The notes beneath the pieces were generated by a model. It had not been told where the DNA came from. It ran no database searches and saw only the letters and a list, made by a program, of their open reading frames with translations. From Candidatus Poseidoniales archaeon (lineage in GTDB: Archaea; Thermoplasmatota; Poseidoniia; Poseidoniales; Poseidoniaceae), in NCBI GenBank assembly GCA_003602575.1, contig QQRY01000057.1, positions 96,137 to 156,670 of the forward strand: a stretch of DNA of 60,534 nt, written 5' to 3'. Position numbers and translations under genes: made by a program. Positions 2,518 through 60,516 of this stretch are shown in pieces (position 1 is the first letter of the stretch; every line of letters begins with the position of its first letter).

Positions 2518-3654
2518 TTACTCTTCGGGTAAGTTTGGAATTTGCTTATTTTCATCATCTAATTGCCCTATATCGTGACTGTTTAGGGCAGTTGGAGTAT
2601 TCGCCACTTGCTCAAGATCTCTAACTACTGGAGGCAGTTCTGGCTCCATATTTAGAGAAGGGACGAATCCTGTCGAGGTTTGTTCTGTATCCAATCCTGC
2701 TCTCATATATCTTGCATTGATGATAAATGGTGAAATTGCTAAAAGTATAATCAAAGCCAAAAATACCAAAGAAACGGTAAAGTTCGGTAATATCAATGTT
2801 CTTTCAGTAGTAATAATAGTGACATCTGCAGCAATTATAGCATCAGGTGGTAATTCGTCATTGTCATGGACATTGTCCCAAGTATCAATTACAATGTAGA
2901 AGTCCTGCCAATCTGCATCTCCAAAAAGACCGCTGTAAACCTCTGGGCCATCTAAACTTAGAGCAAAATTGACGCTATCTACTTTTTCGTACTGATGCGC
3001 ATCCCTGTAAGTTTTCCAACCAAGGAAATTAAAACTTCTCCATTCAGGAGGTATGTCGCTCAAAGATTCTTCGGCTTCTGAGTACCAATTATTTCCTGAA
3101 TGGGATGAAAAATAACTTTCTTCATACTTATCATATTCACTAGAAGTCATAAGATAAACATCTGCACTCACGTCGGAATTACTGGTCTGATTTAGATTTT
3201 GAAGAGTTATACATACCGTAGTTCTATGATTTGCGGATAAATTTAATTTTAACGCACCTACGCTATCATTTCCAATCAAAAGAGTGGAATGATGATTAGA
3301 ATCGAAAGATTCTAAATTATGTTCATATAGATCATACATCCATGAAGGCTCAGGACTTAGAGACATATCTACAGTTGATTCTTGTTCGGCCGAGTCGCCA
3401 TTCCCTGAATCCTTATTATTCCCTTTACGACCATCGCCCTCATCCCAAAAACCCCACCAATCATCATAGGGGTTGAAATGAGGCACCATAGCAATTCTTT
3501 GTAGAGTTTGATTCCATTTAACCGGCTCCAAATCTCCTTTACAAGCATCTGCTGCAGATGCATTCTTACTAATTGACAAAGAGGAATCCGGAGAAATTGC
3601 AATAAGAGGAGCGAGTAATATGAATAGTACAATAAGTACGAATCTTGACCTCAT
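2518..3654 (-). CDS. Secreted/membrane-anchored protein of unknown function (N-terminal signal, C-terminal TM)
   Basis: N-terminal hydrophobic signal MRSRFVLIVLFILLAPLIAIS; C-terminal TM FTVSLVFLALIILLAISPFIINA; no recognised domain. Confidence 0.75.
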   Translation of the reverse strand: MRSRFVLIVLFILLAPLIAISPDSSLSISKNASAADACKGDLEPVKWNQTLQRIAMVPHFNPYDDWWGFWDEGDGRKGNNKDSGNGDSAEQESTVDMSLSPEPSWMYDLYEHNLESFDSNHHSTLLIGNDSVGALKLNLSANHRTTVCITLQNLNQTSNSDVSADVYLMTSSEYDKYEESYFSSHSGNNWYSEAEESLSDIPPEWRSFNFLGWKTYRDAHQYEKVDSVNFALSLDGPEVYSGLFGDADWQDFYIVIDTWDNVHDNDELPPDAIIAADVTIITTERTLILPNFTVSLVFLALIILLAISPFIINARYMRAGLDTEQTSTGFVPSLNMEPELPPVVRDLEQVANTPTALNSHDIGQLDDENKQIPNLPEE

Positions 3655-46404: not shown

Positions 46405-48144
46405 CTAGTTCTCCTCCACCGTATTGGCGATTTCTTCATTCATTGACTTTATCATTCCTTCGATGGTGTCTACGTATCCCTTCTCGAACCTTCCTCTCAT
46501 CAAGTCAGTTCTTGCTGGAACGTTTACTACATCATTTAGTTGTCCACCATTAGCCATTGCAGACTTCGCTGCATCTTGGAAAGATAGAATGGCTTTAGCC
46601 ATCTTGTATTGCAAGTGTATGTCACAGTATGCATCAACTTCGTGGAACCCGTTCTGTTGTAGGAAGAACTCACGAATCATTCTTGCAACTTCAAGAGTTA
46701 GTTGCTGATCTACTGGCAGAGCATCTGAACCAACTAATTGCACAATTTCTTGTAATTCTGCTTCAACCTGTAATAGACCACTGATTTGAGTTCTAACTTC
46801 AGGGAAATCCTGAGCGATATTATCTCTAAACCATTGGTCGAGACTTTGTGGGTAGAGAGAATAAGAATTCAACCAGTTAATAGCTGGGAAGTGTCTTTGT
46901 CTTGCAAGACCAGCATCTAGACCCCAGAAAACCTTTACAATTCTCAAAGTACCTTGTGATACCGGTTCAGAAATATCTCCACCCGGAGGTGAAACTGCAC
47001 CAATGACAGTAACTGAACCATCGTCCCCATTGAGCGTTTCAACACGGCCTGCTCTTTCGTAGAATTCTGCGATTCTTGAAGATAAGTAAGCAGGATATCC
47101 TTCTTCACCCGGCATTTCTTCAAGACGTGATGAAATCTCACGCATTGCTTCTGCCCATCTAGAGGTTGAATCAGCCATCAAAGCTACATCGTATCCCATG
47201 TCGCGGAAATACTCAGCAATGGTAATCCCAGTATACACAGATGCTTCACGTGCAGCAACAGGCATGTTTGATGTGTTTGCTATCATAACAGTACGTTCCA
47301 TCAATGGCTTACCAGTGTTAGGGTCAATCAAGTGAGGGAACTCGTCAAGAACTTCAGTCATCTCATTTCCTCTTTCGCCACATCCAATATAGACAACCAG
47401 TTGTGCATCAGAGTACTTTGCAAGAGATTGTTGGGTAACTGTCTTACCAGATCCAAATGGACCAGGAATACCAGCTGCACCGCCTTTAGCAAGTGGGAAC
47501 AAGAAATCTAGAATCCTCATACCGGTAACTAGAGGGGTGTCAGGCGCATACTTTTGTCGGTATGGACGTGGAGTCCTAACCGGCCACTTCTGCATCATCT
47601 GTAATTCAGAACCATCGTCTAATACACAGACAGTTTGAGTAACGTTGAAATCTCCAGATTCAATTGACTTTACTTTTCCACTCATACCAGGTGGAACCAT
47701 GATTTTGTGTACGATTGTTTCAGTCTCTTGGACGTTTCCAATCACTTGTCCACTTTCCACAGTGTCACCCTTAGCGACTACAGGTTCAAACTTCCAATTC
47801 TTTTCTAAATCGAATGCATCAGCGTCAACTCCTCTTGTAATGAACACACCCATTACTTCTTCGAGGGTTGCCAGTGGCCTTTGTATCCCATCATAAATCT
47901 GGGTCAAAAGACCTGGACCCAAGGATACTGAAAGTGTTTCTTCAGTATTCAGAACTGGTTCACCAGGTCTAATTCCTGATGTATCTTCGTATACTTGAAT
48001 AACTGCTTTATCGCCGTGTAATTCAATTACTTCGCCCATTAGTCCTTCTTCGCCAACTCTAACAACGTCATACATCGCTGCGTTCATTCCAGTTGCGGTC
48101 ACAACAGGACCGGATATTCGGTATATTACTCCTTCATTACTCAT
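46405..48144 (-). CDS. atpA: A-type ATP synthase catalytic subunit A
   Basis: [85 protein letters not shown]. No intein-sized insertion. Confidence 0.98.
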
Positions 48145-48171
48145 ATTTTTTCCTCCATTTTTATTGGAACA

Positions 48172-48471
48172 TTATTTCCATAGGTCGACTCCTATTGCCT
48201 TACGAATTGTATCACGTAAGGTTGTATCCTCTTCTGTACCAATTCCGAGTACAGTAGGTGTTACTGATGCCGAAAGCCTATTTCTAAGGCGCTCTGGCAA
48301 TGCTGCAAGTATTGCGGAGTCGATAACCACAATACCTACATTTTTACTATTGAGAAGTGATTTCAAGGCTGAAGCCATTTCATCATCATTCTCTGGATTA
48401 GTGATATTAGAAATTCCAGCAAGCTGGAATCCCAATGTGAATTCAGGTGAGCCTATTACTGCTAAATCCAT
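48172..48471 (-). CDS. atpF: A-type ATP synthase subunit F
   Basis: MDLAVIGSPEFTLGFQLAGI...VGIVVIDSAILAALPERLRNRLSASVTPTVLGIG. Confidence 0.93.
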   Translation of the reverse strand: MDLAVIGSPEFTLGFQLAGISNITNPENDDEMASALKSLLNSKNVGIVVIDSAILAALPERLRNRLSASVTPTVLGIGTEEDTTLRDTIRKAIGVDLWK

Positions 48472-48481
48472 ATCCTCACCT

Positions 48482-49525
48482 TCACATTATATGTGCCTCT
48501 AACACATCTTCTGGAAGACCCGCAAGCCTACCTCTAACTATAATTCTTAAATCTGCAACCTCTTGAACTTTCATACAAATATAATGAATAATCGGTAATG
48601 CAGATACTGGATGTAAGTAACTCATTCTTTGCATGAAATTATGCTCTTGATTCTTGAACCAAGTAATAACTGGATCTAAACTTCTAACATCTTTAGAGCG
48701 AGAAAGAAGTTGTTCAAATTCTGCAAAGTCTAACTTACTTGAAGACCTTAAAATATCCATCATAGAATCCTTTCCACCGGCAGCAATGGATGAAAAGGAA
48801 CTACTAGGGAGCATTCTACCGCCTGGAATTAATAGTTCAGATATATCTTCTGAATTAATTCCAACTGACTGCGCCTCTAGAATATTCAAAATATTACGAT
48901 GATCTATTTCCATAGCAAGATAATTTCTTAGATACCTTGTTGAAGGCTTAGAAGAAGATAATGCTTTTATCGCTACTGAGAAGTAATGTCTATCCAAGGC
49001 ATCTTCATAATCGGACAATCTAGCATCATCTGGCAGAGCCATCAATGAAGAACCAAATGATTTTCTGCGCATTTGAGTAACTGCAGAACGTAAATCATCT
49101 GAATTTTCAATTATCTTCAACCAAGGTGTATTGATTTGATTTAACTCCGGCAATATAGAATGTGATACTTTTTCCAATTCTACATCATTCATTACCGCTC
49201 GTAAAACTACCTTAGCATTTTGATACTCAAATCTAGAAGTATAAACTTCTACTAATGATTTGACTTTACCATTACACATTGAAACTATTTCTTCAAGTTC
49301 CGACTCAAGGTTGTGAGTCAAAGCAGCTTCAACAAGGTCTCCTCCATTGAATTTTCCAGCATATAAGTTGATTTCATCGGAATATCCGATGTTACTTATC
49401 GCTACAGTCAATTGATCGGGTGATTGGTGAATCAATTGACGCATACGCGCCAAATCTGCAAGTTTATTTCGACGGGATTTAGCCCTCGAAGCAACATAAG
49501 CAGTATTACCAAACACAATAATCAC
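48482..49525 (-). CDS. atpC: A-type ATP synthase subunit C
   Basis: YVASRAKSRRNKLADLARMRQLIHQ; C-terminal AMPHxxxPxxYxxxK-like pattern (HPVSALPIIHYICMKVQEVADLRIIVRGRLAGLPEDVLEAHI). Confidence 0.93.
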   Translation of the reverse strand: MIIVFGNTAYVASRAKSRRNKLADLARMRQLIHQSPDQLTVAISNIGYSDEINLYAGKFNGGDLVEAALTHNLESELEEIVSMCNGKVKSLVEVYTSRFEYQNAKVVLRAVMNDVELEKVSHSILPELNQINTPWLKIIENSDDLRSAVTQMRRKSFGSSLMALPDDARLSDYEDALDRHYFSVAIKALSSSKPSTRYLRNYLAMEIDHRNILNILEAQSVGINSEDISELLIPGGRMLPSSSFSSIAAGGKDSMMDILRSSSKLDFAEFEQLLSRSKDVRSLDPVITWFKNQEHNFMQRMSYLHPVSALPIIHYICMKVQEVADLRIIVRGRLAGLPEDVLEAHIM

Positions 49526-50104
49526 CTAACCAAACAATATCGAATTCACTGAAGACAGTGAATCATTCCAAGCATTTTCTAAAAGGGTATCAAATCTCAT
49601 ATCATATGAAATTGAACCATCGGGTGCTTCGAGGATAAAACCTCCAAGTCCATCGACAGATTCTCCGATTTTTCTCTTGCCCTTAAGGCCGTCTAAGGCC
49701 TTGCGGTCAACTTCTACCGGTCTTATGATATAATCAGCACCAGCCATTTTCCCAGCATTTGTCATCATAGACTTTAGCATACTAGCACGCCCTTTGAATC
49801 CAGGGTCTGCTAATTGTTGCTTAACAGCATCGTGAGTAGCATCCAAAACCTTTCTCCTAGCAATCAAAATTTCCTTTTGATTGGCCTGGCGAGCGCTTGC
49901 AACTACTTCTCTTGCAATCTGAACAGATTCTCTTTCTGCTCTTGCATCTGCTTCACTACGAATATTCTCTGCTTTACTTTCAGCCTCAGATAGTATCTCT
50001 TCGGCTTCGGCTTTAGCTTTCTTGATTATCGCTTTCGCTTCAGCGTCAGCCGTCGCTGCGATATCCTTTGCTAATGTTTCTAGCGTCATCTTTTTTTCCT
50101 CCAA
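49526..50104 (-). CDS. atpE: A-type ATP synthase subunit E
   Basis: DIAATADAEAKAIIKKAKAEAEEILSEAESKAENIRSEADARAERE helical stalk; GGFILEAPDGSISYDMRFDTLLE. Confidence 0.92.
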   Translation of the reverse strand: MEEKKMTLETLAKDIAATADAEAKAIIKKAKAEAEEILSEAESKAENIRSEADARAERESVQIAREVVASARQANQKEILIARRKVLDATHDAVKQQLADPGFKGRASMLKSMMTNAGKMAGADYIIRPVEVDRKALDGLKGKRKIGESVDGLGGFILEAPDGSISYDMRFDTLLENAWNDSLSSVNSILFG

Positions 50105-50150: not shown

Positions 50151-50489
50151 TTATTGAAGGAAGAGCGGCAATGCACCAAGAATCACGATAGATTCTGGCA
50201 ACGCTGTAAAGATAAGCGCAACACCGAACTTGCTTCCATCTTCAGCAAGCATACCGACAGCAGCGCTACCAATAGCAGCTTGGGAGAAACCAGCGCCAAT
50301 GGCCGCAAGACCAAGTGCTAGTCCAACACCGATCATGCCGATGTCTCCATTTATGTCGTTCGAATCGTCGTCAGTTGTTGCTGCATCTTGTGCGGCGACA
50401 CCTTGTGCAACCAAGGTTAGTACCAACAATACGATCAGTGTTCTTAGGCTCATTTTCAGGGTATTATTATTCATTTTTGCTACCTCCAT
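50151..50489 (-). CDS. atpK: A-type ATP synthase proteolipid subunit K/c with N-terminal signal-like extension
   Basis: GMIGVGLALGLAAIGAGFSQAAIGSAAVGMLAEDGSKFGVALIFTALPESIVILGALPLFLQ; N-terminal hydrophobic leader LRTLIVLLVLTLVAQGVAAQ. Confidence 0.93.
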   Translation of the reverse strand: MEVAKMNNNTLKMSLRTLIVLLVLTLVAQGVAAQDAATTDDDSNDINGDIGMIGVGLALGLAAIGAGFSQAAIGSAAVGMLAEDGSKFGVALIFTALPESIVILGALPLFLQ

Positions 50490-50504: not shown

Positions 50505-52841
50505 CTATGATTCACCCTCTACGTGTAGGGTGCGGCCACCAAGCGGCGCAAAAGCGCTACCCGAGCCATCGTAAAACTTGCCCATCCATTCTACGAAGTG
50601 TAGACGGACGGCGTGAATTGTAGGGGAAAGTATTCCCAGTGCTATAGCAAATAATTGAATCAAAACGAATAGAATTATTCCTAATAAAAGTGCGACTATA
50701 TCGCCTGATTCAATTGCTGGACCTATTTTTTCCCAGCCCATTGTAATTGATACCTCTGCGATTTTAACACCTGCAACACCTACTCCCATTATTCGAAGAT
50801 AGGATAGAGTATTTGCTAAAAGACCGAAGGTTTCGATTGGACCCATTATCAGCCCGCCGACCCATCCAAACTTTTCATAGATAGCCAAGCCAATTACTAA
50901 ACTAACCAATCCAATCATGATTAGGAAAGTCCATATTTGTACTTCGAAAAGATCATTGTAATCCATTACCATATTCCTTGCTTGCATCGAGCCACCGGTC
51001 AAAATTAGTAACCAAGATCCTTTCTCGAAGTATGCTGCTGCCGCTCCATGAGCTTTGTAAACAGTGAATAGTCCAATTACAAGTCCAAGGAATATGTGAG
51101 CAATACCGATGTAAACTGATAGAACTACATATTCCTGTAACCCATGACCTGGGCTTGCTCTGTGGAATGGCATATGTAATCCACCAAGATTGAGTAAATC
51201 GGCAATAGCATGAGGTACGTGGACATTAGCATATGTCCAATCATAAAATGCATCGAATGGAGAGGAATTGCCAAGTTGTCCAGTATCATCCCAAACAAAA
51301 CCAAAGCCTTCGGCGAAAATTATACCCCAAATGATACACCAAGCGCCCATCCACTTCAGAATTGTAATTCCATTTTGAGCAAGAGGGTCTTTGGCGAAGG
51401 GTTTCGAACCCAAGAAAACTGCAAGTAAATAGATTAGTAGACCGTATCCCCAGTCACCTAAAATCATCCCATAGAAAAGAGGGAAAGTCATCATTAGAAG
51501 CATCGAAGGGTCATATGTACCATACTTTGGCCTTCCTACTAAATCAACTAAAAGTTCGAATGGTTCAGTGGCTTTACCATTGACGAATTCAATCGGGGGA
51601 ACTGCTTCATCATGTTCGGAATGTGAATCAGAACTGGTGGCTGAAACTCCCGATAATGCAATATCTAGTTCAGGCAAATTGATTTTACCATCCTTATTTA
51701 GATCGATGGCAGCCAAGAACTTGGCCATATTCCAAGGAGGCAACTCTCCAATATCTGCGGACTTCATGGCACTCTCGATTTCTTTAAACTCAAGTTGGCC
51801 AGAATCATCTAAATCCATAGACTTGAAAAACTGGAAAACTGATTGGTTGGAAGAGGATAAGTAATCTGCCAACATAACCAATTCTTTTGGAGTGCTACTT
51901 GTATGTGAATCGTGGTCTTCTTCATGGTGGTGATGTGAATCAACGTATTCTTCTATAGAAACATGAGATGCGCACTCAGATAGTGCTTTTCTGACTTCGT
52001 CCGCTTTGATTGTAGGAATCCATGCGTCGAGAGCAAATGCTTGATTGCTGACTGCAACCAAAGTAGGAGCGGTGAAAATTTGTTCTTCCCTTTCCAAATG
52101 TTCTTTGATTCTTACCAAGTTGGAACCATTAGATTTGGACCATTGTTCAAGAGACTTACTAGTACTTTCACTTTTAGAATGTAGTTCTTCAATAGTGCTC
52201 TCTATCTCTGATATCCTCTTACTAGGAGTGCCTTCTCCACTAGGGATTTGAACAGCCTTTGAACCCAGTTCTGCTAATCCGATTTGAACCGCTGCCCCAT
52301 CTTTAGGTTGGCATGCAATTGCAACTACTCCTTTCGAAGCTTTGAGTTCTATATCCTTAATTATATCACTGAATACAACTTGTGCCTTTGAAGCCTTACT
52401 GGTTTCAGCTAGATAAATCTCAACACCATCATAACCAGACATAAGTTCCAACGGTATGTCTAAAGGAGCTATTCTTGTTAGCGCTTTTAGTTGCTCTTCT
52501 AAAGAATTGATCTCTGATTCGCAGCCTCTAATTATTTCAATGAACTCAAGAGCGTCATCTACCTTTGCTTCGAACCCATCCAACATTTCTACAACATTTT
52601 TACGTGTAGTTGGACCATCCATGTTTATGGCGTTGACTTCCGATTGTAATGAACGGACTTTAGTTAGTAATCTACTTACTATCTCTGAATTATCGCTCTT
52701 AATAGAAGATCCTATTCCGATTCCGTCTTCAAAATTACTGTATTCTTCTATGTGAACGCACTTTAGATTTGTACATTGGCGGATTACTTCTTCCAAATTA
52801 CCGACTGGTGCAGCGACGGTTAATCTGGACATTTCAAGCAT
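50505..52841 (-). CDS. atpI: A-type ATP synthase subunit I with inserted EF-hand pair
   Basis: C-terminal TM domain RPKYGTYDPSMLLMMTFPLFYGMILGDWGYGLL...LSYLRIMGVGVAGVKIAEVS...HAVRLHFVEWMGKFYDGSGSAFAPL; EF loops DLDDSGQLEFKE and DLNKDGKINLPE in the soluble part. Confidence 0.96.
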   Translation of the reverse strand: MLEMSRLTVAAPVGNLEEVIRQCTNLKCVHIEEYSNFEDGIGIGSSIKSDNSEIVSRLLTKVRSLQSEVNAINMDGPTTRKNVVEMLDGFEAKVDDALEFIEIIRGCESEINSLEEQLKALTRIAPLDIPLELMSGYDGVEIYLAETSKASKAQVVFSDIIKDIELKASKGVVAIACQPKDGAAVQIGLAELGSKAVQIPSGEGTPSKRISEIESTIEELHSKSESTSKSLEQWSKSNGSNLVRIKEHLEREEQIFTAPTLVAVSNQAFALDAWIPTIKADEVRKALSECASHVSIEEYVDSHHHHEEDHDSHTSSTPKELVMLADYLSSSNQSVFQFFKSMDLDDSGQLEFKEIESAMKSADIGELPPWNMAKFLAAIDLNKDGKINLPELDIALSGVSATSSDSHSEHDEAVPPIEFVNGKATEPFELLVDLVGRPKYGTYDPSMLLMMTFPLFYGMILGDWGYGLLIYLLAVFLGSKPFAKDPLAQNGITILKWMGAWCIIWGIIFAEGFGFVWDDTGQLGNSSPFDAFYDWTYANVHVPHAIADLLNLGGLHMPFHRASPGHGLQEYVVLSVYIGIAHIFLGLVIGLFTVYKAHGAAAAYFEKGSWLLILTGGSMQARNMVMDYNDLFEVQIWTFLIMIGLVSLVIGLAIYEKFGWVGGLIMGPIETFGLLANTLSYLRIMGVGVAGVKIAEVSITMGWEKIGPAIESGDIVALLLGIILFVLIQLFAIALGILSPTIHAVRLHFVEWMGKFYDGSGSAFAPLGGRTLHVEGES

Positions 52842-52850
52842 AATAACACC

Positions 52851-53162
52851 TTAAAAAGTAGTCATGGTATCCAATATTGCTTTTACAGCCTTGTCTAAAT
52901 TCTTTGTAGCATTTGATTCAATCGAATCAACTTCCTTGGCTCCAGTCTTTTGGACTTTACTTGCTTCTTTATCTGCGCCCTCTCTTGCCGAGTCGAGTTT
53001 AGCTTGTGTATTTGACACTGAATCATCGGCAGCGCTAGATACAATCTCGCTAGATTTCTTCCTAGCGTCAGACATAATTTTTGATGCTTCGGTTTGTGCA
53101 TCAGCAAGTTTCTTTGCTGCATCGCGCTCAGTTTGTTTGATTTTACGAAGAACGTCGGACAT
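52851..53162 (-). CDS. atpH: A-type ATP synthase subunit H
   Basis: Short coiled coil MSDVLRKIKQTERDAAKKLADAQTEASKIMSDARKKSSEIV directly upstream of subunit I. Start revised to ATG at 53162. Confidence 0.85.
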   Translation of the reverse strand: MSDVLRKIKQTERDAAKKLADAQTEASKIMSDARKKSSEIVSSAADDSVSNTQAKLDSAREGADKEASKVQKTGAKEVDSIESNATKNLDKAVKAILDTMTTF

Positions 53163-53269
53163 ACCCAAGTAAATCACCTACAATTCGCCGTATTATAGGG
53201 GGTTTATGAGTCTAGTGATTGGACATGATTTCAAACACAATCCCATTGATTGTATAATTGCGCCTGTAG

Positions 53270-54074: not shown

Positions 54075-54887
54075 TCAAGCAATACGCTCAACTGTTTCAG
54101 GAGTAATACCTTCTTCAGGAGTCACTCTAAATACAAGTATCTTCAAATTTTCCGGAGCATTTCTAAACTTGGAAACTATCATAGATGTTTCAAAATCAGT
54201 ACCTATAGTCCTAACTTGGAAAGATAGTACCATATCTGCAATTGATGCTAATTCTTGTTTTACTGAAGGAGAAAGTCCGTCGGTAGATACTGAAATTAAA
54301 ATCAAACCTCTGTATAATTGTGCGTGTGCTTGTAACATTCTAACCATAGCGACAACTCTCGCAGGGTCGTCTCTTTGAAGGAAGAAATCTAGACTGTCGA
54401 TAACTGCTCTAAAATATGGCCCTAAAGCCATAACTTCATTTGTAACTTCGGTCAAATAATCCTGTGTCACATCATCTACGAATCTCGTTTGGGCTAATCT
54501 TTGAATGTCTTCAAGCCTAAAGCCTTCCAATCTATACCTGCTTGCCAATAATTCTTTTTCCAGAACATTTGAATTGTATTCTTCTCCAATAGTCCTTACA
54601 TTGATATCTAAAGGCCAGTCATACTTTTGAAAAATTCTAACAATCTCTGCCTGCCCTTCATTAGTCGAGATGTAAAGGGTGTTTTCAGCTTCTTCTGCGG
54701 GTGAAACGAATTGTTTGGCGAATAATTCACTTCCTGAACCTGTGCCTGTAAATGCTATCATCGTGAAACCTCTAGGAACTCCACCATGCATTTCATTATC
54801 GAACTTCGGAACTCCAAAAGAACCGACTGAGCCAAAGAATTTCTCATCTTCCTCATCAAACTTGAATTCTTTTGCCATGAATCTCAC
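54075..54887 (-). CDS. KaiC/RecA-like protein, degenerate Walker A
   Basis: FGVPKFDNEMHGGVPRGFTMIAFTGTGSGSELFAKQFVSPAEEAENTLYISTNEG; FRAVIDSLDFFL; KaiC-like order with the P-loop Lys missing. Confidence 0.8.
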   Translation of the reverse strand: MRFMAKEFKFDEEDEKFFGSVGSFGVPKFDNEMHGGVPRGFTMIAFTGTGSGSELFAKQFVSPAEEAENTLYISTNEGQAEIVRIFQKYDWPLDINVRTIGEEYNSNVLEKELLASRYRLEGFRLEDIQRLAQTRFVDDVTQDYLTEVTNEVMALGPYFRAVIDSLDFFLQRDDPARVVAMVRMLQAHAQLYRGLILISVSTDGLSPSVKQELASIADMVLSFQVRTIGTDFETSMIVSKFRNAPENLKILVFRVTPEEGITPETVERIA

Positions 54888-54888
54888 C

Positions 54889-55482
54889 TCAGTGTATTAC
54901 AACCTGACCTCTGTCGATAAGGTCTGTACAGTATAGATCTAAATTTGACAAAACCAATGGCGGTGTTTGGTCAGGTACATTTAGAATAACAGTTAGAACT
55001 TCCTGCTGTCTAAATGTGTTAATGAATGTGTGAAGATATTCAGCCAACATTCTGTCCTCGTTGTAAATAGCTAGAGAATTAACGCTGTCAAGGAATATAA
55101 AATTGCGTTCATGTTCAGTGGTTTTTAGAATATATAAGGTGCGCAAAAGTACAGATTCTAGCATGATAGGGCTGTCAACAAAATGAACATTGGAATAAGG
55201 TACTGTCGTCCCTCCTAAAATCCCTGACGATACTAAATCGATGAATTGTATATGAGAGACATCCACTCCTATTGCCTCAAAGCCTTGGATGACTTCTGCC
55301 GCACCTCTACTTGCGCTAATATATACTCCGCTCATCTCAAACATCTGTAGTAGTGGTATCATAGTACTGGCCGTCACCATAAATGCATTAGAGTTGCCAC
55401 AGCGGACTTGAACTGCGCTATTTAGTGAAACCTCTGTGAGTTGATCCGATATACCCTGGTCTAGTTCAAACATATCATGCAC
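54889..55482 (-). CDS. KaiC/RecA-like protein lacking a P-loop
   Basis: NAFMVTASTMIPLLQMFEMSGVYISASRGAAEVIQGFEAIGVDVSHIQFID...RNFIFLDSVNSLAIYN; RecA-like layout without GxxxxGKT. Confidence 0.68.
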   Translation of the reverse strand: MHDMFELDQGISDQLTEVSLNSAVQVRCGNSNAFMVTASTMIPLLQMFEMSGVYISASRGAAEVIQGFEAIGVDVSHIQFIDLVSSGILGGTTVPYSNVHFVDSPIMLESVLLRTLYILKTTEHERNFIFLDSVNSLAIYNEDRMLAEYLHTFINTFRQQEVLTVILNVPDQTPPLVLSNLDLYCTDLIDRGQVVIH

Positions 55483-56257
55483 CCCATCTATTCTGTGTAT
55501 CGCTTACTGCGCCCCATTTTAACATTGGAGTCAGCATTACTCCAAGAGGGGTTAATTCGATGGCATGCTTAGCCCTACTGTGAGAAGTTCCCCTCATTTT
55601 TACTACTTGTAAAAATCTTAGCAAGTGACCCATTCGCTCTACATCTCCAAGTACGATAATTCCATCTGCAATTGCTTCTTCAACACCAAAAGATGACCAA
55701 TGTGCGTTTTCGGTAGCAGAGGTAATCTCTGCGATCAAAATTGTTGTGCAGCCTAGAGTTGCTAACTTTTTACCAAGTGTAAACAAGAAGTCTCGAATCA
55801 ACTGCTCGGATTTAATCTTATAACAAAGCGTAGTTACCGAATCGATAACCAATCTAGTGACACCAATTGTATTGACAATGTCCACTATGGCTTTAATCAA
55901 AGAATGAACATCATCTAAATCGAAAGACGACTTTTCCAATCCCAGCCAAGAGTATAGAACGTCCATATCAAATACATTTATCAGGCCTGAATCTACCATT
56001 TTAACATCAAAGAATTGAAATTGCCTGATGTTTTCAAGAAGTTTTACAGAGGGTTCAGTAGCGGTGAAATGGGCACATGCCTCGCCAGCATCGGCTCCTC
56101 TGACTAAAAATTCCATGCCTAGAGTGGTCTTTCCTGAACCACAGGTTCCTGAAGCCAAAACTGTTGAACCATAGGGTATGCCACCTCTTAGAATTTCATC
56201 TAGACCATGCACGCCTGTAATGCATCGGTCTCGGGAATATTGGCCGGCTGGTTGCAT
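55475..56257 (-). CDS. KaiC-family RecA-like ATPase (intact Walker A)
   Basis: ITGVHGLDEILRGGIPYGSTVLASGTCGSGKTTLGMEFLVRGADAGEACAHFTATEP; TRLVIDSVTTL. Confidence 0.92.
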   Translation of the reverse strand: MQPAGQYSRDRCITGVHGLDEILRGGIPYGSTVLASGTCGSGKTTLGMEFLVRGADAGEACAHFTATEPSVKLLENIRQFQFFDVKMVDSGLINVFDMDVLYSWLGLEKSSFDLDDVHSLIKAIVDIVNTIGVTRLVIDSVTTLCYKIKSEQLIRDFLFTLGKKLATLGCTTILIAEITSATENAHWSSFGVEEAIADGIIVLGDVERMGHLLRFLQVVKMRGTSHSRAKHAIELTPLGVMLTPMLKWGAVSDTQNRWGA

Positions 56258-56346: not shown

Positions 56347-57423
56347 CTAATTTCCAGGACTAGGTTGTGAAGGTATGAACCAATCTGAAGAAGAAGCTGG
56401 GATGTTGCCATTCCATTCCAATGTTTGACTGGGTGTAAGGAAAAATCCTGTATCTCCGCCCCATTCAACTCTAAAAATCTCAAATGGTCTAAATTCAGAT
56501 AGTTGCGTATAACTCAGTTTTACTATCCCACCTCCATCATCAAGGCCGCTGATTGAACCAACGCCCAAAAAACCGGATTGACCCAAATCAATCACTTGGG
56601 TCGCATTTCCTACGTCTTGAGAAAGAGCATCACCGGTGAATAAAGTAGTCGAATGACCCTTTAAAACTCCCTCTTTTAGAAGTATATTGGTTTCCCCGGA
56701 AGGCGAAATATGATTAAAACTCCAACCTTCTAGAGATATTGCGAAATCATTAGGGTTGGAAACTTCAATCCACTCTGGGCTACCTGAAACCGAGCGAGGA
56801 CTTATTTCGGTAATGTGTAATGAATTTGATTTACGCCCTCCATCATGGACTTCTAATATCAATTGAATTTTTTCAGCCCCATCCTGGAAGGTCACTGACG
56901 CACTAGATGATGTTTGAGCTGTATTACGAGGAGTTCCACCTTCAAATAATACTAAATTATTTCTTGAGGAATTATCACTATCGATAATTTTTATTTCGAT
57001 AAATAAACTTAGCCCGTCATCTAGCCCAAGTCCCTTTACCATTCCATCTTCAGTTACATTGGAAAGTGAACTAACTCTATCAAAATCTAATTCTCCGTCT
57101 AGCATTAGTCCGACTTGGACTACACCATTATCAAGTTCATTAGCACTAACATCATGCCACTCAGTTGTAGCATTTTCATAATCAAGATTTGAATCTAACA
57201 TTGGAACAAACCAGCCGCTGTTTGATGTCATACGGTCAAGCCCATTGTATGCTGCACGATCGATTCGATCTACTGAGGTGTCGTTAGAACCCATTTCTAG
57301 TTGTGCCAAAGAGAGAAATGCTGTCAAAATCATCAAAAATAATGTGAAAGCTGAAAGAAATTCAATAACTGCAGTCAAACCATTTTCATCTCTTTGAAGA
57401 GAATGTTGAGACTGCTTGCGCAT
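56347..57423 (-). CDS. Pilin-like N-terminus fused to a lamin-tail-like domain; surface protein
   Basis: N-terminus RDENGLTAVIEFLSAFTLFLMILTAFLSLAQLEMG resembles archaeal pilin H-domain; SLHITEISPRSVSGSPEWIEVSNPNDFAISLEGWSFNHIS resembles LTD. Confidence 0.78.
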   Translation of the reverse strand: MRKQSQHSLQRDENGLTAVIEFLSAFTLFLMILTAFLSLAQLEMGSNDTSVDRIDRAAYNGLDRMTSNSGWFVPMLDSNLDYENATTEWHDVSANELDNGVVQVGLMLDGELDFDRVSSLSNVTEDGMVKGLGLDDGLSLFIEIKIIDSDNSSRNNLVLFEGGTPRNTAQTSSSASVTFQDGAEKIQLILEVHDGGRKSNSLHITEISPRSVSGSPEWIEVSNPNDFAISLEGWSFNHISPSGETNILLKEGVLKGHSTTLFTGDALSQDVGNATQVIDLGQSGFLGVGSISGLDDGGGIVKLSYTQLSEFRPFEIFRVEWGGDTGFFLTPSQTLEWNGNIPASSSDWFIPSQPSPGN

Positions 57424-57531: not shown

Positions 57532-60516
57532 ATGAGAGGAAGGTGTATGAGTGCAGTCCACAAGCGGCTAAATGGCAACCGGAAAAGTTGCTTCTCGTTC
57601 GTGTTGTTACTGCTGTTTAGTTCACTTTCAGGTATTGCTATGACGCCAAATGCGGAAGCTGCCGCTAATGGGGATTTAGGAATTGTTTCTACTGTCTATC
57701 CTTTAGAGGATACATGGATTGCTGCATATGACTCTATTAAATTCCAGGTTGAGATTGAAAATTTCCATGCAGCGCCTTCCCCTTCAGGCAGAGTACTAGA
57801 CTGGTATGTGTGTGAAGGAGTTAAAGCTTCAAATTTATGTATTAGTTCAAGTGTAAAAGATGGAAGTATTACGATAAGTTCAATTTTACCTGGCATAGTT
57901 GAAACTATTGAATCTCCTACTTTTTTCAATCCAAATGGATTCAATGGTTTAATGACAATAGTGTACAAGTTTGATCAGTTTGATTTTGACTCCAATAATG
58001 ATGTGTTCTCATTTACAGTCAACTCATCAACAAGTTTTACAGATATAAAAATGAATGAAGAGATTAATATTCTAGATGACATTGATAATCTTGCTATTCA
58101 TGAAGGACAACCAATCATAAATTCGAATACGACTTACACATTTCAATTTGATGGTTATTCACATCTATGTGGGTCTTGTCAAATTAATTCTAGCATAGGA
58201 TGGGAGTTATGGAATATAGAATCGGGAGAGAAAATTTCCGACTCAATGGTCAATTACTCTAATTTCCCTAAATATGGATATTACAAATCATTTTCCATTC
58301 CACTACCTGAGTTTCAACATAATGAAACCGGAGAATTTTTGATCAAATATGGGATGTTTGAATCGCAAGGTAGCCCTAACAATGACATGGTTACAGATAA
58401 TAACATAAAGCAAGAGATAATATCCATTGATAATCAAATAGATGTTGTTCTAAGTCAGATGTATCCATCCCATAATCCATCATCGCAAGAATATTATTTC
58501 GGAGAAGGTATGCTTACTGCGCAACTATTGAATGATGGCAATAAATCTGTACATAATCTAAGTACTACCATGGAAGTTTTTAATGCTGTAAATGAATTAC
58601 AAACTATTGACACTTGCCTAATAGAAGTAATTCACCCAGGCGATACATTTACCTGTTATTTTGATATATTCACTAGCGGGGTGTTTTTAGACTTAATCGT
58701 AACAATTCCAACTATCACTGAAGATGGTACTGATGATGTTACAGAGAATAATGTTATCGAAGAAAATACGGAGATAGTAATCCCTTCACTGAGTGGCTAC
58801 ATAGTCAATAATAACGAAAAAGCATGGTATACTAACATAGATCAAATAAGTCTTACAGGTAATGCTAATTTATTCGCCCCTGGGCCAGTTAATTATTCTT
58901 GGTGGTATGCAGGAATAATCAATTTAGGATATGGTAAAAATCTCACAATTGATTCTAGCTCATTAGGTCTTGGAGAGCACGTAATCAGGCTAACAGTGCG
59001 TGATATTTTTGGTAATACCGAGAATATTTTTGAAGTTGTGAATGTATATTATTACTCGGAAGAAGACAATTCTCCAGAATATATAGCCTCTGGAGTAACC
59101 ACTGAAGAATCATCGATAATAACCGAAAAGATGTTACCAATTATTGGAGAAACATATGGCGTAGGTAACGGTAAATCTCCTCTTTTGATAATGTCATTCG
59201 ACATAATTAGAGAATCTGATAACTCAAGCCTCTTTACCGGCTCTAATTGGATGGATATTGAACTGAATATGTCATATTTATTACTTGATTCAATTCCATT
59301 TAGTTCATTAGAGATTAGAACACTAGATAACTTTGAAGATACAACTTGGGAGGTTTACCAGGGTTCTGATCCAGTACTAGATACTGTTAATGAAAATATT
59401 TCTTTAACAATTTATGATAGCATGACCATACTGGTTATTGGACAAATAAATACTCCTTATGTATTTGCAGATAATTTTTCTACTTCGTTGATTGAAGGTG
59501 GCAAATTTAGATTAGACTGGACTCCTACTGGAGATGTAAACAATGACTACATAGGAGGATGGAACATCTATCAATTAGCATTGCCTGAAACAGGAGGGAC
59601 TGTATTTCCTTCTTCGAACCAAAATTTCAATCAATTAGTTTGGGATGATTTGACTACAGATTCATTTAGAATGTTCTTACCGATTGAAGAATCTCACTGG
59701 CTAGATTCTTTCAAAGTTGAAGATGGTTTTTGCTCATCTTATGCCATAGTACCCGTAGACAGACAAGGTATACCTTACTTTGAAAGGGCAAATGTCACCG
59801 TTGACGAGAATGGGGACGGTACTTATCTATGCGGGGACAACACTCCCCCAGAATCAAATGTAATTCAATTCAATCATGCTTGGGAATTTACTAATAGTAG
59901 TGATTGCTATAAGATTCGAAATGATTGGTCAATGTGCTATTCTGTAGAAATTAATTGGATTTGGCCAGAGCACGAAATAGATGGTAATGTGACTTGGAAT
60001 CTATATAGAATAGAGCAGAAACCTAATGGCATTGACATTTCACTAGCAACGCCTATTTTAGCCGACATTCAAGCAACTCCACTACAGCCTGGAAATTTCA
60101 CTGAGTACGGCTGGGAAGATGATGGAATTAGGCCGCAACGGACTTATTACTATATTTTGACGCCAGTAGACTGGGTAGGTAATGAAAAGGTAGTAATCCA
60201 GTTCCCATCACCAAACGTTGAAAGAGTGTATATTGAAGATGATTGGTGGTCTTATTATCAACACCTGATTCCAGTTCCACCTGAACCTGAAGAACCGCCC
60301 TTAGGCAATGAATGGCTCGGAAACTTTAGTGAGAGTTTAGAGCAGGATGAATTCAAGTATGCAGGAATCGTTGTATTGCTAACTTTATGTATCTCTTTGA
60401 TAATGCTCCCACTGATAATAAAGAAACGAAAGCGCCTAAACAGAGTCATCAATGCTAGAAATAGACAGAAACTGACAGATTCTATGGCTGATGAGTTCGA
60501 TGATTTCTTCGATTAA
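57532..60516 (+). CDS. Large cell-surface protein, signal peptide and C-terminal TM anchor
   Basis: Signal CFSFVLLLLFSSLSGIAMTPNAEA; beta-rich repeats; C-terminal TM YAGIVVLLTLCISLIMLPLIIKKRKR. Start ATG 57532 or 57547. Confidence 0.82.
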   Translation: MRGRCMSAVHKRLNGNRKSCFSFVLLLLFSSLSGIAMTPNAEAAANGDLGIVSTVYPLEDTWIAAYDSIKFQVEIENFHAAPSPSGRVLDWYVCEGVKASNLCISSSVKDGSITISSILPGIVETIESPTFFNPNGFNGLMTIVYKFDQFDFDSNNDVFSFTVNSSTSFTDIKMNEEINILDDIDNLAIHEGQPIINSNTTYTFQFDGYSHLCGSCQINSSIGWELWNIESGEKISDSMVNYSNFPKYGYYKSFSIPLPEFQHNETGEFLIKYGMFESQGSPNNDMVTDNNIKQEIISIDNQIDVVLSQMYPSHNPSSQEYYFGEGMLTAQLLNDGNKSVHNLSTTMEVFNAVNELQTIDTCLIEVIHPGDTFTCYFDIFTSGVFLDLIVTIPTITEDGTDDVTENNVIEENTEIVIPSLSGYIVNNNEKAWYTNIDQISLTGNANLFAPGPVNYSWWYAGIINLGYGKNLTIDSSSLGLGEHVIRLTVRDIFGNTENIFEVVNVYYYSEEDNSPEYIASGVTTEESSIITEKMLPIIGETYGVGNGKSPLLIMSFDIIRESDNSSLFTGSNWMDIELNMSYLLLDSIPFSSLEIRTLDNFEDTTWEVYQGSDPVLDTVNENISLTIYDSMTILVIGQINTPYVFADNFSTSLIEGGKFRLDWTPTGDVNNDYIGGWNIYQLALPETGGTVFPSSNQNFNQLVWDDLTTDSFRMFLPIEESHWLDSFKVEDGFCSSYAIVPVDRQGIPYFERANVTVDENGDGTYLCGDNTPPESNVIQFNHAWEFTNSSDCYKIRNDWSMCYSVEINWIWPEHEIDGNVTWNLYRIEQKPNGIDISLATPILADIQATPLQPGNFTEYGWEDDGIRPQRTYYYILTPVDWVGNEKVVIQFPSPNVERVYIEDDWWSYYQHLIPVPPEPEEPPLGNEWLGNFSESLEQDEFKYAGIVVLLTLCISLIMLPLIIKKRKRLNRVINARNRQKLTDSMADEFDDFFD

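Follow-up and report, generated by a model that had tools for sequence, protein, structure and literature searches.

Rotary ATPases are subject to many kinds of regulation, and we know of no calcium sensor built into their subunit a/I, the N-terminal domain of which is cytosolic. Free calcium is low in the cytosol, where an EF-hand can serve as a sensor. In subunit I of T. thermophilus (6r0z_N, 3rrk; PF01496), as in the archaeal protein described here, a cytoplasmic domain with a long helical hairpin is followed by a membrane domain, and the operon neighbours are similar. The EF-hand pairs of calmodulin, centrin and parvalbumin (PF13499) resemble the archaeal module in their two 12-residue loops 37 apart, in their canonical ligands and in the modelled fold. 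Some eukaryotic type II NADH dehydrogenases bear EF-hands, and they too have a calcium-binding domain added to a respiratory-chain enzyme; such enzymes are not ion pumps. Like the module reported below, an EF-hand-like domain is physically associated with a rotary ATPase in the case of mEAK-7, a partner of the mammalian V-ATPase, whose EF-hand-like region is without ligand residues and shows no calcium response (PMC9263379).

The window, a stretch of 60,534 nucleotides from a Poseidoniales (Marine Group II) draft genome of 1.97 Mb in 59 contigs, carries an A-type ATP synthase operon on its minus strand, with the genes arranged as H/G, I, K, E, C, F, A. We find that its subunit I contains an EF-hand pair, and we propose, giving the idea an even chance, that this pair is a mobile Ca2+-responsive cassette copied onto ion-coupling complexes, where it tunes ATP synthesis or steadies the complex. 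The gene, atpI (50505-52841, minus strand), encodes 778 aa and matches Pfam V_ATPase_I (PF01496) at 100.2 bits (cut-off 30.7, E 1.1e-28). NCBIfam equivalog models reach 1.5e-103 at best, yet stay under their full-length cut-offs. The AlphaFold model, computed on 45 sequences with a mean pLDDT of 71, has a cytoplasmic domain and a multi-helix membrane domain, and Foldseek aligns it with the V/A-ATPase subunit I of T. thermophilus (6r0z_N) at E 3e-23, TM 0.57/0.66. On both sides lie further genes of the operon, all on the minus strand: upstream a peripheral-stalk subunit H/G-like protein of 108 aa (52851-53177; ORF and a sub-threshold V-ATPase_G_2 match), and downstream the c-ring subunit K of 112 aa (50151-50489; ATP-synt_C, 44.6 bits). 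Subunits E, C, F and A (49526-50104, 48482-49525, 48172-48471 and 46405-48144, minus strand, together spanning 46405-50104) were assigned by eye from ORFs and gene order, without a profile search. Family match, context and fold thus identify an A-type ATP synthase subunit I and bear out the sequence-only reading, which had called the protein ATP synthase subunit I. A search of the genome revealed a single full-length subunit I and no second EF-hand-bearing ATPase.

Subunit K has a Na+-type motif, with Gln in GFSQ and the sequence LPESIVI (50151-50489, minus strand). The Na+-type c-ring motif LPESxxI has been discussed for the MGII/MGIIa ATP synthase, with calcium unmentioned (PMC6336850). Elsewhere in the window, three successive KaiC-type ATPase-like genes occupy 54078-56257 on the minus strand (PF06745; 59.8, 21.8 and 180 bits, the middle one below the cut-off). 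The window also encodes a 358-aa protein (56350-57423, minus strand), whose match to the lamin-tail domain stays below threshold (30.1 bits, cut-off 34.3), and a 994-aa protein (57532-60516, plus strand) for which Pfam gives nothing at E 0.001.

The layout of subunit I, on the minus strand throughout, is as follows. The N-terminal cytoplasmic (stator) domain (residues 1-298, 51948-52841) runs from AlphaFold element E4-12 to E293-298 and corresponds to 3rrk. A His/Asp/Glu-rich linker comes next (VDSHHHHEEDHDSHTSST and its neighbour; residues 299-317, 51891-51947), defined by alignment and with pLDDT below 50 at residues 301-315. The EF-hand pair module of about 82 residues (318-399, 51645-51890), delimited by the Pfam matches, the module alignment and the modelled helix-loop-helix pair, holds loop 1, DLDDSGQLEFKE (residues 343-354, 51780-51815), and loop 2, DLNKDGKINLPE (residues 380-391, 51669-51704). 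A second, flexible linker (SATSSDSHSEHDE; residues 400-412, 51606-51644; pLDDT below 50) leads to the membrane domain (residues 413-778, 50508-51605), where NCBIfam and PDB matches begin at residue 402-415 and where the stretch FELLVDLVGRPKYGTYDPSM lies shortly after the EF-hands. Two canonical EF-hand loops within 51650-51830 had been predicted from the letters, and both are there. Each is 12 residues long with ligands at positions 1, 3, 5, 9 and 12 and Gly at 6, as read from the sequence and from column counts over 44 sequences, and the two are 37 residues apart, the spacing of a canonical EF-hand pair. Against residues 335-392 four Pfam models score over their cut-offs: EF-hand_1 (29.2 bits, cut-off 25.4), EF-hand_7 (30.2, cut-off 30), EF-hand_5 (26.9, cut-off 25.9) and EF-hand_6 (25.7, cut-off 25). 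An independent whole-genome search returned the EF-hand_7 pair in subunit I at 34.7 bits (E 4.4e-8). The match is far beyond chance.

Where does the module sit relative to the known subunit? Compared with T. thermophilus subunit I, query residues 298 to 405 correspond to chain residues about 301 to 309. Given that 3rrk covers 301 residues and that the membrane match starts at chain residue 309, query residue 405, the module is placed where the stator and membrane domains meet. Alignment with insert-less relatives, in which the cytoplasmic domain passes through a short linker, for instance VDDHHHADDEGHHHASPP (L059), into the membrane domain, establishes that the EF-hands are an insertion ahead of the membrane domain, as had been claimed. 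These relatives keep HHHxDDxxH at the linker position, so the module is placed exactly within a His/Asp/Glu-rich linker that they already have. An apparent second insert of about 120 extra residues in one homologue (L057) was rejected, the stretch being a run of N.

The modelled fold agrees with the sequence. In the whole-subunit model the EF region forms helices 335-340, 352-361, 372-379 and 389-403 with short strands at 349-351 and 386-388, the pattern of an EF-hand, and an extra helix occupies residues 319-330; block means of pLDDT in this region, 60-77, are of moderate confidence. Modelled alone, the module reaches a pLDDT of 79, and centrin, parvalbumin and calmodulin-type EF-hand proteins dominate the best 50 Foldseek matches listed, with probabilities near 1 and weak E-values (best 0.02). 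We therefore regard the module, with moderate confidence, as an EF-hand-like pair of two helix-loop-helix units. To that degree the loops fold in models as EF-hands should.

More than 40 of 80 loci from public genomes have the insert, and it recurs in dozens of independently assembled genomes of the window's genus (MGIIa / Poseidoniaceae), which include the MG-II chromosome CM001443.1 (L039) and AG-333-I22 (L022), a single-cell genome judging by its name. When a subunit I tree is computed with the insert columns removed, the 47 rows that bear the insert fall into one clade (SH-aLRT 93) explained by one change, and five insert-less rows are its sister. The module was gained once on this tree, in the ancestor of most of the window's genus. 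Across 44 sequences, positions 1, 3, 5, 6 and 12 of loop 1 are invariant (D-L-D-x-S-G, with Glu at 12), as are positions 1, 5, 6 and 9-12 of loop 2 (D-x-(D/N)-x-D-G, with N9 and Glu at 12), where position 3 is D or N. Positions 1, 3, 5 and 12 are Ca2+-compatible in 44 of 44, and both loops end in Glu. Averaged over the usable close pairs from an 18-pair list, of which three were skipped, pN/pS is 0.08 for the module, 0.11 for the cytoplasmic (stator) domain, 0.19 for each linker and 0.04 for the membrane domain. The module is under strong purifying selection, and the invariant ligands together with the low pN/pS indicate that the metal ligands are part of the selected property.

Is the selected property sensing, or merely a bound metal? 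A pair permanently loaded with Ca2+ (or Mg2+) might stiffen the hinge between stator and membrane domains and sense nothing; the strong conservation of the module fits such a structural role as well as it fits a sensor, and mEAK-7 offers a precedent for a structural EF-hand-like domain near a rotary ATPase (PMC9263379). However, a module hung on two low-confidence, faster-evolving linkers would be a poor stiffener, and its loop ligands are canonical, unlike those of mEAK-7. Moreover, Glu at loop position 12 is known from EF-hands in general to prefer Ca2+ over Mg2+. We consider a purely structural site unlikely.

The proposed cassette is not confined to the ATP synthase. In a search with subunit I, its residues of about 298-420, and no others, match a second protein of the same genomes at 40-55% identity. 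This is a multi-helix membrane protein of about 650-780 aa that carries the EF-hand pair close to the C-terminus, in some members ahead of a SAP domain, and whose gene adjoins that of a YchF-like GTPase (L119:4037-6211, minus strand, G000:C51; homologues L120-L123, L128-L131, L167-L173 and L178-L181). One family member matches COX1 (PF00115) at 35.1 bits, just over the cut-off of 34.8. In PDB sequence searches, the matches listed for the profile were EF-hand proteins and the membrane part of one member was unmatched; the name COX1-like is therefore tentative. The family has no invariant histidine, which, with the marginal COX1 match, suggests that the protein may be a degenerate oxidase subunit. 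Apparent in-frame stops in some matches (for example in 656-aa frames with '1 TGA') probably reflect matches extending beyond the gene's own stop. The tail module is present across Poseidoniaceae; the protein also occurs in the order's other family, where profile matches stop at about position 549, before the EF-hand part.

Copies also occur in complex I. In genus g18 the host is NuoL, where the module interrupts a His-rich loop (HEVHHAHHHLHH) that comes immediately behind the conserved, H/K-bearing helix FNHAMAKGMLFMASGAVIH (L176:2873-5413, plus strand; also L177, L186, L188 and others in g18, and L125 and L215 in g9). At this site solved NuoL chains have about six residues; a crude hydropathy analysis of the NuoL gave 11 segments. 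In g15 the module is carried by the C-terminal part of a split NuoJ, which ends in it and is encoded between nuoJ part 1 and nuoK (L175, ORF at 3004, 191 aa; L216, L217), and a genome of the other family, G296, has it on both NuoJ, likewise split (L215, ORF at 2250, 198 aa), and NuoL. Hosts vary by lineage. The g1 genomes bear the module on subunit I, and their NuoL has the His-rich loop without it, whereas the strong matches of g18, with host identity confirmed on a subset, fit NuoL and the COX1-like protein by the length of their frames, and none is as long as subunit I. With a module profile (A1), strong copies turned up in Poseidoniales, and the remaining Thermoplasmatota in a draw of 298 genomes yielded none at E 1e-12. 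Given its presence in the NuoL, NuoJ and COX1-like proteins of relatives, the subunit I insertion belongs to a lineage-wide pattern, which the sequence-only reading had missed, and is not unique to the ATP synthase. In a tree of the module, the subunit I, NuoL and NuoJ copies fall within the COX1-like diversity and COX1-like members form the deepest branches, which suggests that the COX1-like protein was the source. With 82 columns, an unsettled bootstrap and many forks unresolved, this tree makes the copying direction a lead rather than a proof.

Similar modules on two membrane proteins of one genome, at 40-55% identity, could also mean docking, in that the EF-hand pair would bind a partner, possibly the module of the COX1-like protein, and tether the ATP synthase to other membrane complexes. 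Certain inactive EF-hand units are described as typically forming dimers with other EF-hand proteins (PMC7016017). Against this, the candidate partner is hypothetical, and subunit I modules and their COX1-like counterparts in the same genome have diverged; docking seems to us rather improbable.

EF-hand domains are common across the Poseidoniales genomes that we searched. Small stand-alone calmodulin-like proteins of 88-136 aa with one EF-hand pair are found in several Poseidoniaceae genera (L220-L224). A C-terminal EF-hand pair occurs on what by eye is an APC-family-like amino acid permease (L005, G000:C35:68329-68496) and, after an apparent transmembrane segment, on a partial amidohydrolase-like ORF (L003, G000:C28:1261-1440). 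Zinc-ribbon proteins in several Poseidoniales genomes combine multiple EF-hand pairs with long acidic stretches (L127:491-2689, minus strand, G000:C50; L126, L182, L183). Since the window's own genome has EF-hands on unrelated proteins of the permease, amidohydrolase and zinc-ribbon types, the presence of a module on a bioenergetic complex is no sure sign that it regulates that complex. In addition, the five sister rows in the subunit I tree do without the module.

It is conceivable that a self-folding mobile domain has accreted almost neutrally, tolerated in disordered His/acid loops and kept for no other reason than that its unfolding would harm the host protein. The abundance of EF-hands in these genomes and the observed insertions, in low-complexity linkers or tails, would suit such a history. 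Drift constrained by folding alone should, however, erode the ligands first, whereas the Ca2+ ligands are invariant genus-wide and pN/pS is 0.08, and we judge accretion improbable still. An assembly or binning artefact, which a draft in 59 contigs might invite, has a negligible chance. The sequence-only reading had named a misassembly as a possible refutation; misassembly is ruled out by the insert in those dozens of independent assemblies, including CM001443.1 and AG-333-I22, and the frame is open and under strong purifying selection.

How might a Ca2+-responsive cassette have come to act on the ATP synthase? The EF-hand pair of 82 residues would probably have resided first on the tail of the degenerate COX1-like protein in Poseidoniaceae and been copied a single time, in an ancestor shared by most of the window's genus, into the His/acid-rich linker of subunit I; close copies would have reached complex I, in NuoL and NuoJ, in other lineages. 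The subunit I module most likely faces the cytosol, by analogy with the cytosolic N-terminal domains of subunit a/I in rotary ATPases, and most likely binds cytosolic Ca2+. A Ca2+-driven change in the module, beside the neck of rotor and stator, might then turn ion-driven ATP synthesis up or down, or steady the complex. We infer the direction of copying, the binding of Ca2+ and the effect on coupling or assembly. Two antiporters of the Na/Ca-exchanger type and one P-type cation ATPase, all encoded in the window's own genome, make calcium export plausible; such exporters are common, also in bacteria such as E. coli, and therefore give the calcium reading weak support. The module in the ATP synthase, with close copies in the complex I of relatives, points to a tuning of energy-making by calcium in these archaea, though it falls short of proof. 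A wider version is possible though doubtful: in Poseidoniales, Ca2+ would serve as a common signal setting energy coupling, one cassette having spread in separate events onto the ATP synthase of a single genus, at subunit I, onto NuoL of a second, onto NuoJ of two further genera and onto the COX1-like protein, to place oxidative phosphorylation under direct calcium control.

These archaea are very abundant, uncultured and dominant at the ocean surface. Should the module sense calcium, ATP synthesis and complex I would be under calcium control in a dominant archaeal group of the surface ocean, a kind of control long regarded as eukaryotic. Being small, the module can be tested on its own, and natural insert-less relatives are ready-made controls. 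One small domain repeatedly entering low-complexity loops of large membrane complexes is also a clean case for the gain of regulation.

Had the insertion been described before? In the open-licence literature we found no description of it, nor any report of an EF-hand in a rotary-ATPase subunit a/I or with an archaeal ATP synthase; because open-licence papers were covered, the absence of a report is no proof of novelty. The one paper found there that joins EF-hands with Poseidoniales remarks only that calcium-binding domains occur in the protein modules specific to the families Poseidoniaceae and Thalassarchaeaceae (PMC9258230). Known subunit I structures pass directly from cytoplasmic to membrane domain, whereas the window's protein has about 105 residues with the EF-hand pair between them. 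The module profile matches calcium-dependent protein kinases and calmodulin, but unlike calmodulin-type sensors, free or kinase-linked, the subunit I module is a single pair embedded in a membrane-protein subunit, with an extra N-terminal helix (residues 319-330). mEAK-7 is a separate protein without ligands, while the window's module is part of subunit I with its ligands intact. In contrast to the EF-hand type II NADH dehydrogenases, the archaeal hosts are ion-translocating complexes, ATP synthase and complex I. The EF-hand pair and subunit I are each known; what is new is their combination and the recurrence of the module on complex I.
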